NCBI GenBank assembly: GCA_947455215.1
Contig: CANGNA010000008.1
Coordinates: 1-64,000, forward strand
Direction: 5' to 3'
Source of the DNA: Chitinophagaceae bacterium
GTDB taxonomy: Bacteria > Bacteroidota > Bacteroidia > Chitinophagales > Chitinophagaceae
DNA: 64,000 nucleotides
Shown here piece after piece: positions 49,825 through 54,632 of this stretch. The notes under the pieces are model-generated. The model made no database searches and was not told the origin of the DNA. It saw only the letters and a program-made list of their open reading frames with translations. Made by a program: the position numbers and the translations under genes. Every line of letters begins with the position of its first letter. Positions within the stretch are counted from its first letter, which is position 1.

Positions 49825-49880
49825 GGCAATATATTGCGGGGATATGCCGTTAAATCAAAATACCTCAAAAACTCGTCCTG

Positions 49881-51216: not shown

Positions 51217-51246
51217 AAAAAAAGCTCCGCAATTGCGGAGCTTTTT
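51217..51246 (+). terminator. Terminator of the NHL-repeat gene
   Basis: Seven A residues, GCTCCGC, AATT, GCGGAGC and TTTTT form a classic bidirectional terminator four bases after the stop. Confidence 0.88.
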
Positions 51247-51249
51247 GGA

Positions 51250-51296
51250 GTGGGGCGGGGATATGTCGAACTTTTTTGTGGAGGATTTGGAGCGGT
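51250..51296 (+). repeat. Direct repeat, copy 1, left side of the AT-rich island
   Basis: The core GTGGGGCGGGGATATGTCGA, continuing ACTTTTTT and TGTGGAGGATTTGGAGCGG, is repeated in the same orientation at 52274-52320 with one gap and a few substitutions. Both copies come directly after a terminator hairpin and flank the gene at 51362. Confidence 0.7.
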
Positions 51297-51361
51297 TTAA
51301 CGATCTAACGTAAGTTCTGAATGAGAAGGTTAACTATTTTGTGAAGCAATAAATTTTTCAA

Positions 51362-52216
51362 TTGAAAAGTAGGTTATACTATATCGGTCAGTTTATACAG
51401 CGATCTTTCTCGAAATATGGAATGGAATTTCGAGACTCTAAAGACTTAAATAAGGCGGCTAAAAGGTGTCTCTATTATATTGACAAAATGGAAAGAGATG
51501 ATTTTTTAGATAACGATGTTGATATTTTTATCGCGAGACTTATTGGAGTATTTACCGTTGGTATAAGTTATCAAGAAGCCATTACTTTATTATGCTTAAC
51601 AGGGCATGGCTTGAATTCGTCAACGCTTGTACGATCACAACTTGAGGCATTTTTAATTTTATTCTATTTGATAGAATCAGATGATTTGGATAAAGTTGCG
51701 CAACGAGTTGTGCTATATGAAGATTGGGTAATGATAAAAATGTATCTCAATTCTAAAAAATCGGGAACCTATGAGCTATTCACAATCAATAAATCTCACA
51801 GAGAATATTTAGAACATGTGGAAGCAAATTATTTAAGAATAAAAGCAAAGTACAGTAACAATGAAACACTATTTAAAGAACTTGAGAAATCGCAAAGCTT
51901 TTTAAAAAACAAAAGGGATATTGCCGTAGCAGCGGATATTGAAGATCTGTACAATGCTGTTTTTTCTGAAACTTCTGCTACCGTACATATTGCAGATATA
52001 TCAGACAGAATGATGGAAGTTGACAACGACTATGAGTATCGAATATATTCGAGTGAGCATTCAATGATGATGACAGGTTTATCAAATATTCTTCTGGTAA
52101 AATCGATTGTGCTTTTCACAACTTTTTTTAAGTTTTCAAAGGAAACCAAAAAGAAGATTTTCAAGAACGTTCGCCTCGCTAAAAGCTCTCAAGCCCACGC
52201 AACCTTCAAAGTATGA
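51362..52216 (+). CDS. DUF5677-like protein in the AT-rich island
   Basis: The 284-residue helical protein contains ITLLCLTGHGLNSSTLVRSQLEAFLILFYL (about residues 78-107), where the R-S-L-x-E-A pattern is typical of DUF5677-like proteins. VAQRVVLYEDWVMIKMY and a C-terminal SATVHIADISDRMME follow. Some members accompany defence genes; no activity is known. The start is a TTG at 51362 (first possible after an in-frame stop); an ATG at 51422 is the alternative. AT-rich composition unlike its neighbours suggests transfer. Confidence 0.65.
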   Translation: MKSRLYYIGQFIQRSFSKYGMEFRDSKDLNKAAKRCLYYIDKMERDDFLDNDVDIFIARLIGVFTVGISYQEAITLLCLTGHGLNSSTLVRSQLEAFLILFYLIESDDLDKVAQRVVLYEDWVMIKMYLNSKKSGTYELFTINKSHREYLEHVEANYLRIKAKYSNNETLFKELEKSQSFLKNKRDIAVAADIEDLYNAVFSETSATVHIADISDRMMEVDNDYEYRIYSSEHSMMMTGLSNILLVKSIVLFTTFFKFSKETKKKIFKNVRLAKSSQAHATFKV

Positions 52217-52232
52217 ATTAACGAGAAATAAA

Positions 52233-52263
52233 AACCGGGAGCTCTGGTTCTATGTTCCCGGTT
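52233..52263 (+). terminator. Terminator of the DUF5677-like gene
   Basis: AACCGGGA and TCCCGGTT form an 8-base stem with a 15-base loop, 17 bases after the stop. It immediately precedes repeat copy 2. Confidence 0.6.
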
Positions 52264-52273
52264 GTTGTGGAAA

Positions 52274-52320
52274 GTGGGGCGGGATATGTCGAACTTTTAT
52301 GTGGAGGAATTGGAAAGGTT
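52274..52320 (+). repeat. Direct repeat, copy 2
   Basis: GTGGGGCGGGATATGTCGAA, followed by CTTTTATGTGGAGGAATTGG and AAAGGTT, aligns with 51250-51296. Together the copies flank one gene and its terminator, a unit of 1,024 bases. Confidence 0.7.
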
Positions 52321-52358
52321 ATGTTTTTATATAAAAATTAAGCAGTCATAAAATTTGA

Positions 52359-53315
52359 TTATCTAAATGGGACAATTTTATTTACTTCAATAACATCTTT
52401 AAATGTTCCATCCATGTTGCATATTACTAATACACCCTGCTGCCAACTTTGTATTGTCGATTTGAATTCTCCATAAACAACGTCATCTAGCAAGTTGATG
52501 AATAATTCTATTATGGATTTATATGTCATGATTCTATTAATTACATTTTGGCCATCATCACATGTAAACGCAACAACGGGTTGATAGGTATTCTTAGTAT
52601 AGTCGCCAACGCTGAGCATATGGACCAATTCACAATCCAAATAATCTTTTAATTTTTTTAACCGCATCGAGCCGTTCATTTTTTCGATTGTTTCATTTGA
52701 ATAATCACTTTTTTTCAGCAATGAGGGGTAGGCTATATCCCAAAGTTTTTTTGCAATCCTAAACTTGCTCAATCCAGCTACAAATGAATCATTAATGAAA
52801 AAAGTTGGGATAAAATAAGTGTGTAAAGCCTGTAGTTGAATTTCCTTTGGAAATTCAAACTTGTAAAGAAAGTCGAAAGCCAAACATAGAACTATATAGT
52901 CTTCAAAGTTATCATCATTTAAGGGGTCGAGTATGCATATCTTCTCAAAAGCAGTTGCTTCAAAAGATGTGAATTTCATTTGTTCTTGGGCTTTATCTAA
53001 AAAATACTGCTTTTTTAAATTTGGTGAACTATAATAGAAAGATTTTGCCTCAGAAATAACGTAGTCTAAAAGCTCCCGCAGTTTCTTCCCACTATTCAGA
53101 TGCCTAGGAATGCTAATTGGAGGATTGGGAGCCGTTATTCCAAGGGCCTCCATAATTGTAAAAGGAGTCATTCTAAATGCAATTGGTCGACTGGCAATTT
53201 TTTTTGTAATTTCATACTTGTCAATTGCATTATTGAAGTTTTTTAATGCGAGTCCGTTTGGCGAAGTAGTAAGTTGTCGGTATAAATTATTGTCGAATAG
53301 ATAGCTATATCTCAT
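52359..53315 (-). CDS. Uncharacterised protein of the AT-rich island, possible PIN-like nuclease
   Basis: The 318-residue protein is not clearly assigned. The first strand MRYSYLFDNNLYRQL carries an Asp at the position of the PIN-domain motif. FTIMEALGI near residue 52 carries a Glu, and a late segment LDCELVHMLSVGD plus VVAFTCDDGQNVI places acidic residues as in PIN folds. The middle (about 70-215) is helical. A PIN-like RNase is an inference from these spaced acids only. The start is ATG 53315; a TTG six codons earlier is possible. It is divergent from the next gene with 31 bases between starts. Confidence 0.5.
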   Translation of the reverse strand: MRYSYLFDNNLYRQLTTSPNGLALKNFNNAIDKYEITKKIASRPIAFRMTPFTIMEALGITAPNPPISIPRHLNSGKKLRELLDYVISEAKSFYYSSPNLKKQYFLDKAQEQMKFTSFEATAFEKICILDPLNDDNFEDYIVLCLAFDFLYKFEFPKEIQLQALHTYFIPTFFINDSFVAGLSKFRIAKKLWDIAYPSLLKKSDYSNETIEKMNGSMRLKKLKDYLDCELVHMLSVGDYTKNTYQPVVAFTCDDGQNVINRIMTYKSIIELFINLLDDVVYGEFKSTIQSWQQGVLVICNMDGTFKDVIEVNKIVPFR

Positions 53316-53346
53316 AACACTAAAGTAGTTCAACTTAGATCAATAT

Positions 53347-54237
53347 ATGGCATCTTCTGAAAAAACGTCCTTGAAGCATTATTGCAGTGTATGTCAAAAT
53401 GAGAATCATCATCATGTTCTTATGGCTAAGACTATCAATAATGATGAAGACGATTATAAAATATCGTGGAAATACTATATGCTTCAGTGCATGGGATGTG
53501 AATCAATATCATTTCGAATTGAGACACATGATTATGAGGTTTCTTACCCCGACGAGTATGAGAACTGGATTCACGAAATAACAGTGGAAGTTTATCCGAA
53601 GCCCCTAAAAAATCACAGCCCCATTTCAGAGCAATACAATCTTCCCAGTACGATTCGCACTGTGTATAAAGAAACTTTAGACGCTTTGAAAAATGAATGT
53701 AATCTGCTTGCTGGTGTCGGATTTCGAGCAGTTATAGAAGCGGTATGTAATGATAAAAAAATTACTGGAAAAAATCTTGCTACGCAAATTGACAATCTAT
53801 CTAAAAACAGACTTATAACAGAAAGCGAAGCTAAACGATTGCATGCAGTACGTTTTTTAGGCAATGACAGTATTCATGAGATCGCTGTTCCCAAAAAGGA
53901 AGCTCTCATTGTTGTTCTTGAAATAATTGAACATTTACTTAGAAATATTTATCTTATTGATTTGCATGCGAAATCTGTATTAGACACATTTATAACAGAA
54001 TTTGAAGATTTTGAAGATTTGCTATTGCGAAAACTAAAACAATTTAACGCGGGCGATGACTACCCGTTAGCTAAGTATTTGGATAAGGATATTCGAAGAT
54101 TGAATAATCAACTAACGAAATTTGAACAAGAACTTATTAACGCGATTAATAATGGGGATTTCCCAAAATTAAGTGTCGGTGCAGTAAAGCGGTTTGGAAA
54201 TAACCCCGATCAACTACAACATTTTATTAAGCAATAA
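53347..54237 (+). CDS. DUF4145 protein with N-terminal zinc ribbon
   Basis: The 296-residue protein has two CxxC pairs (HYCSVCQNENHHH and LQCMGCESI), a zinc ribbon. A DUF4145 domain (about 110-205) follows with VGFRAVIEAVCNDKKITGKNL, LHAVRFLGNDSIHE and LEIIEHLLRNIYL. The C terminus is a coiled-coil-like helical tail. DUF4145 occurs alone or attached to restriction enzymes; its role is unknown. It is transcribed away from the PIN-like candidate, so the two probably share a regulatory region. Base composition is about 30% GC in its core. Confidence 0.75.
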   Translation: MASSEKTSLKHYCSVCQNENHHHVLMAKTINNDEDDYKISWKYYMLQCMGCESISFRIETHDYEVSYPDEYENWIHEITVEVYPKPLKNHSPISEQYNLPSTIRTVYKETLDALKNECNLLAGVGFRAVIEAVCNDKKITGKNLATQIDNLSKNRLITESEAKRLHAVRFLGNDSIHEIAVPKKEALIVVLEIIEHLLRNIYLIDLHAKSVLDTFITEFEDFEDLLLRKLKQFNAGDDYPLAKYLDKDIRRLNNQLTKFEQELINAINNGDFPKLSVGAVKRFGNNPDQLQHFIKQ

Positions 54238-54280
54238 TAGAATTTAAGAACAAAGGTTCGACTTTGCGATATTTACGAAA

Positions 54281-54314
54281 CAATAAAACCCTTGCCTCAG
54301 CAAGGGTTTTATTG
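54281..54314. terminator. Bidirectional terminator between the DUF4145 gene and tRNA-Ala
   Basis: A perfect 15-base inverted repeat (CAATAAAACCCTTGC, loop CTCA) with A and T tracts on both sides ends transcription of the tRNA (-) and of the DUF4145 gene (+). It marks the right edge of the island. Confidence 0.85.
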
Positions 54315-54316
54315 TT

Positions 54317-54390
<74 letters not shown>

Positions 54391-54458
54391 CCGTGTGGGC
54401 TGCAAATATAGGGATATCCGCCAATTTTTTCCGTAATTTTATAAAAAAGAGAAAATTT

Positions 54459-54632
54459 ATGAAAGGTGGTATTTGGCAGCAGATCTTAACCTATTTCTAC
54501 CTTCGGAAAAGAGATCCTTCCGACCCTACGAACGCGAACATAAAGATGATGCACGGCATGAACCGTATTTCTTTGTTTATGTTTCTTATTGCCATTATTG
54601 TGATGGTATACAGGATCTTTTTCAAGCACTGA
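54459..54632 (+). CDS. Small conserved single-pass membrane protein (DUF6728-like)
   Basis: The 57-residue protein has a soluble start (MKGGIWQQILTYFYLRKRDP), MMHGMNRIS, and a C-terminal membrane helix (about 36-53, ending FFKH). This arrangement resembles short conserved Bacteroidota proteins (DUF6728, tentative). The ATG at 54459 is used; the longer frame includes the tRNA edge. A terminator follows 47 bases later. Confidence 0.65.
   Translation: MKGGIWQQILTYFYLRKRDPSDPTNANIKMMHGMNRISLFMFLIAIIVMVYRIFFKH

Follow-up and report, generated by a model that had tools for sequence, protein, structure and literature searches.

Our analysis of a 64,000-nt stretch of DNA from a Chitinophagaceae bacterium (assembly GCA_947455215.1, contig CANGNA010000008.1, positions 1 to 64,000; hereafter the window, along which positions are counted) revealed that an AT-rich island at 51247-54317, lying against a tRNA-Ala(GGC) gene, is split by a direct repeat, R, into two cassettes. 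Comparison of R loci further shows that units bounded by R are exchanged between genomes. Based on these observations, we propose that the island probably consists of two small, non-autonomous, integrase-less cassettes that accreted at the 3' end of tRNA-Ala(GGC) and were moved in trans.

The island and its repeat

R is a 45-nt direct repeat, absent from the preliminary description of this DNA, whose copies at 51253-51297 and 52276-52320 are identical at 39 of 45 positions; its pattern gave no match in 100 shuffles of the window. The preliminary description had taken the island for one three-gene module. This did not hold up, because the two copies of R stand in direct repeat and thus divide the island into cassette 1, carrying a DUF5677 gene, and cassette 2, carrying a gene for a 324-amino-acid (aa) protein and a DUF4145 gene. 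The features are as follows (ORF, open reading frame).

51219-51246, no strand: hairpin/terminator, directly before the first R copy
51248-51298, plus: R1, first tag copy; core TCGAAC at 51266-51271; mini-ORF MSNFFVEDLERFNDLT from 51263
51272-52294, plus: cassette 1, core to core; putative boundary, placed from other cassettes
51362-52216, plus: DUF5677 protein, 284 aa; Pfam PF18928, E 1.6e-12
52277-52320, plus: R2, second tag copy; core TCGAAC at 52289-52294; mini-ORF MSNFYVEELERLCFYIKIKQS
52295-54317, plus: cassette 2, from the R2 core to the tRNA 3' end; putative boundary
52359-53333, minus: 324-aa protein with no Pfam match above cut-off, 318 aa if started at the ATG at 53315; possibly PIN-like
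53347-54237, plus: DUF4145 (HEPN superfamily) protein, 296 aa, with an N-terminal zinc ribbon; Pfam E 5e-18
54256-54340, no strand: right end of cassette 2, with GTTCGAC, a terminator-like hairpin and the tRNA 3' end up to GTCGAACC
54318-54392, minus: tRNA-Ala(GGC), which anchors the array; its T-loop TCGAAC, read on the plus strand, is at 54334-54339

The strong AT-richness that had been described, against neighbours near 50%, was borne out. The guanine-plus-cytosine (GC) content of the island is 0.340, whereas 547 overlapping windows of the same length elsewhere in the window have a mean of 0.483 (standard deviation 0.018, minimum 0.447); an earlier hand count of 17 G/C in the 60 positions 53761-53820 was reproduced by computation. 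GC is 0.336 in cassette 1 (51298-52276) and 0.335 in cassette 2 (52321-54317). The island does end at tRNA-Ala(GGC), as described, and since this gene lies on the minus strand at the right edge, its 3' end faces the island. Terminators had been placed at both ends. The left hairpin was confirmed, with 12 pairs; the right one, at about 54285-54310 and within the inverted repeat I1, is present and was not listed by the terminator scan. Acquisition of the island as horizontal accessory cargo at a tRNA is also supported, with its structure amended to two R-bounded cassettes of a family whose cassettes are common to several genomes. That this is instead an ordinary AT-rich stretch with vertically inherited genes is scarcely credible. 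The DUF4145 and DUF5677 families are widespread, as such inheritance would have it, but the island lies about 8 standard deviations below the rest of the window in GC, R-bounded units recur across genomes, and the 324-aa gene was found in only 2 of 394 genomes of the family, its own included (E limit 1e-8; 392 without a match).

R usually follows a terminator-like hairpin and opens with GGAGAAGGGCGGGAATATG (type A, to which the window copies belong) or with GCGGAGAGAGAGGGACAACTT and its variants (type B). It continues with TCGAAC and then a conserved left end, TTTTTTGTGGAGGATTTGGAG or similar. Two more R arrays lie in the same genome. In C24, R copies flank a 209-aa gene and a GmrSD_N-type gene (PADLOC NsnA, E 1e-35), and in C94 they stand with 526-aa and 353-aa genes. 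The GC content of C24 is 0.359, against flanks of 0.495 and 0.481, and that of C94 is 0.389 and 0.335, against flanks of 0.484 and 0.509. A facing tRNA was found at the end of all 3 arrays known in this genome, namely Arg(CCG) in C24, Ser(GGA) in C94 and Ala(GGC) in the window. Since all three arrays are AT-rich and tRNA-ended, they share a common layout of R - cargo - R - (cargo) - tRNA 3' end. In C24, the final 100 bp that separate R from the tRNA showed no recognisable gene.

The right half of R can also be read as a mini-ORF. In the frame of TCGAAC (Ser-Asn), where TTTTTTGTGGAGGATTTGGAG encodes FFVEDL, nearly all copies yield SNFFVEDL or a close variant, a short tail and a stop. A coding test on codons 3-8 of 73 distinct sequences, kept of 79, counted 59 synonymous changes among 131, against 37.5 +/- 4.6 expected. 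One reverse frame showed a like excess (66 synonymous against 43.7 +/- 5.0 expected), so the test does not distinguish the coding strand; type-B copies stop at a fixed codon, 15 (16 by another count), which favours the forward frame. In C24, the mini-ORF stop was read in the sequence as overlapping the ATG of the GmrSD-type gene. The mini-ORF may encode a leader peptide, for instance one coupling translation of the incoming gene.

Two features near the island complete the picture. A 13/14 match to the left half of R at 49836-49849, upstream of an NHL gene, is probably due to chance. On the other side, a DUF6728 gene (54393-54632, E 5.7e-27) starts beside tRNA-Ala; it accompanies the same tRNA in other genomes, including that of locus L081, whose array also ends at a tRNA of this kind but carries other cargo.

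Exchange of R-bounded units between genomes

The R loci compared here are the stronger matches of sensitive searches together with loci from pattern and 24-mer scans, rather than every match listed. Neighbouring R copies were in direct orientation in 28 of 28 pairs. Within 47 loci, eight segments of at least 300 bp and at least 85% identity are shared across genomes; five of these end no more than 60 bp from R, and 3 of the 8 have both ends there. When R was placed at random in 1000 trials, the mean was 0.63 for one end (maximum 4) and 0.006 for both ends (maximum 1). A first comparison had shown only segments ending near R and was biased; the figures given are those of the test redone on all segments within the stated limits.

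Whole cassettes were recovered in different surroundings. An IetAS cassette (3.6 kb) is 95% identical in two genomes, a 209-aa cassette (1.0 kb) is likewise 95% identical and a HigBA cassette (0.8 kb) is 87% identical. The IetAS pair, a subtilase and an AAA ATPase, forms one R-started cassette at 7662-11108 of L081 and 1900-5346 of L095 (profiles were run on the L081 copy). For both the IetAS and the HigBA pairs, the right end in one genome each is TCGAAC without an R after it. Genomes of two genera (G401 and G371) share a TOTE primase-helicase gene with 93% identity over 2.6 kb, and the match begins at R. By alignment, breakpoints fall at (T/G)TCGAAC, and the left halves of R differ across these 6-8 nt core breakpoints (L081/L095 and L079/L089). 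In addition, a terminator unit lying exactly between two TTTCGAAC is present in L075 and absent in L097.

These breakpoints bear on another explanation, in which ordinary homologous recombination swaps cassettes between copies of R, itself a dispersed repeat of mobile or extragenic type. At about 50 nt and well conserved, R could seed such recombination, and the copies in Kordia, Cytophagales and Mucilaginibacter share mainly its right half. Nevertheless, exchange at a 6-8 nt core with differing left halves on either side would not be expected of it, nor would the uniformly direct pairs and the association with facing tRNA 3' ends described below; we therefore consider this explanation improbable.

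Among the cargo scanned in other arrays were IetA, IetS, a GmrSD/NsnA-like protein and the TOTE primase-helicase (the latter beside a single R). Further cargo comprised HigB toxins with helix-turn-helix partners (in two arrays), a PemK-like toxin and an Ntox23-domain protein, and many proteins had no family. A larger match was observed between L077 (3611-11598) and L078 (8064-882), where more than 7 kb in two matching pieces is about 99% identical (G410 and G420); it begins exactly at R, with differing left flanks, and looks like a larger, recent transfer.

tRNA 3' ends and the proposed movement of the cassettes

Within 2.5 kb of 53 R loci, eight downstream tRNAs face R (at 7 loci), none downstream lies on the same strand, and five lie upstream (at 4 loci). 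In some of its copies, the left half of R itself resembles tRNA 3' ends. In a comparison with 12 distinct tRNA segments, 15 nt of R, always placed 6 nt ahead of TCGAAC, agreed with a tRNA 3' end in at least 12 positions in 15 of 77 copies, whereas 0 of 385 shuffles did so; with at least 11 positions, the counts were 38 of 77 and 9 of 385. Type-A copies reach 12 at best and commonly 11 of 15. R in C94 (L108) matches the tRNA-Ser of its own array at 15/15, and R in L070 at 14/15. In the type-B array of L070, the last unit (...TTCGAATGACAAAACCCGCGC...) continues straight into the tRNA-Ser 3' end GCGGAGAGAGAGGGATTCGAAC. The unit before type-B R copies is 0.64-0.86 identical to this tRNA-Ser flank in 12 of 14 cases and 0.57 and 0.47 in the other two; the shuffle maximum was 0.55, and 17 of 80 copies could be delimited by a recognisable upstream core. 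In the window it is the right end that fits: taken with the adjoining tRNA 3' end, the end of cassette 2 is 0.67 identical to the unit preceding R in L089 and 0.62 identical to that in L086, where shuffles reached at most 0.54 and 0.53.

From these patterns, we predict the following course of events. A cassette would start with the conserved left end just after TCGAAC, carry one or two accessory genes and close with a terminator and a mimic of the tRNA 3' end that extends as far as TCGAAC of the T-loop, so that the tRNA would keep a 3' end and a terminator after insertion. Each insertion would leave a junction R on the far side, where later cassettes could stack in the same orientation. The mover would be a site-specific recombinase acting in trans and encoded outside the arrays, which we infer because the breakpoints are fixed, the orientation is constant and no recombinase was found in the arrays. 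The cargo would presumably be kept for defence or addiction.

As to the identity of the mover, the integron-integrase profile TIGR02249 gave no protein over cut-off in 33 genomes, and none in 14 control genomes either. No tyrosine recombinase was found by Pfam among the island proteins of the window, and none recurred near R by name or sight. A candidate, and no more, is the 596-aa tyrosine recombinase (Arm-DNA-bind_5 and SAM_5, plus a long C-terminal extension) at 2750-4540 of L151 in Mucilaginibacter sp. OK268, which sits between tRNA-Pro and two R copies. As a general mover it was set aside, being one case; tblastn at E 1e-4 otherwise matched only Xer-type proteins in the integrase-search loci. 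A GIY-YIG nuclease was likewise set aside as the mover, since the ORFs at R in L016, L074, L077 and L078 that cluster with one in L101 do so partly through R itself. GIY-YIG-nuclease-like ORFs were seen by eye just before R at 1776-2171 of L101 and also in L016, L074 and L079. Such ORFs could represent a homing-type nuclease near tRNA ends.

The arrays could also be decayed integrative elements, that is, cis-mobilizable elements (CIMEs), left by integrative and conjugative or integrative and mobilizable elements that inserted at tRNA 3' ends, lost their integrases and stacked by accretion, with R as leftover attL/attR. We find this unlikely, although it has real precedent: in the excerpted text of PMC5704250, it is established that remnants with nothing but att sites accrete at the 3' ends of target genes, and integrase-less elements keep their att sites and stack there much as the cassettes do here. 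The R pair of OK268, adjoining a tyrosine recombinase near tRNA-Pro, would also fit. However, the CIMEs of that text are decayed larger elements, whereas the units described here look standardised. Integrase-free units of 0.8-3.6 kb are shared whole between different genomes, and thus seem to be still mobile as small units. The scanned cargo held no transfer genes and no recognisable remnant of transfer functions or of an integrase, and a single tag serves several different tRNAs.

A further alternative is that the arrays are clusters of attC sites lacking integron integrases (CALINs), made of integron cassettes with unusual attC sites whose integrase (IntI) was lost. We consider it very improbable. 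The attC boxes follow the consensus GTTRRRY and RYYYAAC, which the GTCGAAC/TTCGAAC cores misfit by eye; together with the lack of any IntI over cut-off, this led us to reject an attC reading of R. The likeness is nonetheless considerable, with head-to-tail cassettes of about 1 kb in direct orientation, one or two genes in each, a hairpin at most junctions and defence and toxin-antitoxin cargo, as in the integrons and CALINs of the available text of PMC9024848. Unlike those arrays, the present ones have genes on either strand, a site that is not attC-like by eye and, in several cases, an anchor at a tRNA 3' end; some copies of the tag also imitate such ends. For Bacteroidota, only one complete integron, that of Salinibacter ruber, is named in the available text of this IntegronFinder 2 survey (PMC9024848).

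Several observations count against cassettes moved in trans to tRNA ends. No recombinase was found with the arrays, and the integron-integrase search met only two proteins of the own genome, open frames of 332 and 308 aa, which are Xer-sized. As many as 46 of the 53 R loci lack a facing downstream tRNA within 2.5 kb, several of them on short contigs. The left halves of the window R copies are unremarkable, and R1 reaches 10/15 at best (to tRNA-Ser, at another offset), which shuffles equalled. The codon-like constraint on the right half of R is unexplained by a pure recombination site. The eight shared segments include two pairs of adjacent pieces and therefore represent fewer than eight independent events. 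AT-richness is lacking in the IetAS cassette of L081, whose GC content is 0.454 (left flank 0.422), and genes within cassettes run in both orientations. Finally, PADLOC at E <= 1e-10 matched 4 of 23 cargo proteins (IetA, IetS, GmrSD/NsnA-like and TOTE/PrimPol) and 1 of 10 control flank genes (a tetratricopeptide-repeat protein); enrichment cannot be claimed from this, because few proteins were scanned and the Pfam results of some of the 23 were already in view when these were selected.

Accretion in trans also has relatives among described islands. Methylopumilus fGI-2, an additive flexible genomic island, grows by stepwise insertion at one tRNA site, is marked by tRNA 3'-end repeats and carries cargo mostly of unknown function, as far as the excerpted text of PMC10872708 goes. 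In contrast, the tag of the arrays described here is conserved and composite, joining a tRNA-end mimic, a short spacer, TCGAAC and an FFVEDL-coding left end; it is used at several tRNAs and in several genera, and the units measured are 0.8-3.6 kb. Tycheposons are likewise cargo elements anchored at tRNAs, but the same text gives them 4-200 kb and a tyrosine recombinase (PMC10872708), whereas our units are smaller and none was found. As far as our searches show, accretion islands are a known kind and the miniature, tag-delimited form is new; among the papers that text searches of the open-access literature listed, no title or abstract beginning described the R tag or its arrays (subscription papers and preprints lay outside this scope). 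We advance only tentatively, and with more doubt than belief, the broader idea that Bacteroidota possess an integron-like, non-integron system in which standardised mini-cassettes, sharing a tag that mimics a tRNA 3' end and T-loop and stacked at tRNAs by a recombinase supplied in trans, form an exchange market for defence and toxin-antitoxin genes with the mini-ORF as a working part. If the proposed accretion in trans is correct, R would serve as a sequence tag for finding accessory cassettes, with known and candidate defence systems, directly in Bacteroidota genomes. It would also offer a cheap route to choosing proteins such as the three of the window for defence tests, and would raise the question of which enzyme moves cassettes that carry none.

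Cargo of the window and distribution of R

Of the three gene assignments in the preliminary description, DUF5677 and DUF4145 with a zinc ribbon stood, by Pfam and by CxxC pairs (C13/C16 and C48/C51 of the DUF4145 protein), while the PIN-like label was not confirmed. The only homolog of the 324-aa protein besides its own copy in the family genomes is in G133 and is 32% identical. The two share D8-N-N, E56, D227 and D253, which would fit a PIN site. Single-sequence structure models of the DUF5677 and 324-aa proteins were unusable (predicted local distance difference test 37.6 and 46.8). Neither protein had a PADLOC match, so that the defence-profile search suggested earlier for all three yielded one weak, partial match, that of the DUF4145 protein to PD-T7-4 (E 1.1e-7, 29.5 bits, profile positions 13-159 of 211).

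The DUF4145 protein scores 65.4 bits against a Pfam cut-off of 23.1, which places it in HEPN (DUF4145), and it also matches PHROG 1305 (E 4e-31). The catalytic HEPN motif is Rx4-6H; the protein has R169-FLGNDSI-H177, with a spacing of 7. Cassette 2 thus encodes a zinc-ribbon DUF4145 protein with a weak PD-T7-4 match. The 324-aa gene is the divergent partner of the DUF4145 gene and is not known to be part of PD-T7-4. In the excerpted text of PMC3710099, DUF4145 belongs to the HEPN superfamily and occurs in fusions to restriction, helicase and zinc-ribbon domains. A defence role may be considered plausible for the DUF5677, 324-aa and DUF4145 proteins, and an RNase-type abortive defence would be the likeliest function of cassette 2.

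Of 394 family genomes from 101 genera, 5 genomes in 2 genera had the strict R pattern and none had the pattern read backwards. More sensitive searches, over 11 and 35 genomes of these two genera, found R repeatedly there, and it forms arrays in two genera. When the species-genome collection was scanned for an exact 24-mer, 27 stretches were returned, and the titles of all of them name Bacteroidota lineages (Bacteroidetes and Chitinophagaceae bins, Sphingobacteriales, Cytophagales, Mucilaginibacter, Kordia and Taibaiella). The 24-mer had no exact match in viral contigs, and type A had no match among plasmids; for type B, 8 records of proteobacterial plasmids gave only pieces of 24-32 nt (E 0.2-0.8), which we take as chance. 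A class-wide pattern scan found R in 11 of 396 genomes (10 besides the own one). The backward control found 4, so the signal is thin beyond the two genera and a handful of named strains. Rfam, run on five loci, reported tRNAs only.

Related genomes were checked for an empty site, as proposed earlier. Three genomes of the same genus have tRNA-Ala and, by eye, a terminator-like hairpin with no R beside it (L182-L184 and L193-L195). A strict empty site, with the same left and right neighbours joined, was looked for in the relatives and was not found; none was readable because the left neighbour of the island has only partial, weak matches in the genus, with no clear ortholog. Most relatives are metagenome bins with short contigs. 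Their loci around the ROK gene have no tRNA within 1.5 kb, and for C24 the comparison was made through DHODH, where the flank stops short of the tRNA, in the own genome as well. To the left of tRNA-Ala(GGC), L181 (G349:C298) and L190 (G089:C5) have degenerate copies of tRNA-Ala that stand in tandem next to the genuine gene; the copies are almost full-length, and their anticodon arm is altered. In L190, a GIY-YIG-like ORF, recognised by eye, apparently lies between the copy and the real tRNA-Ala.

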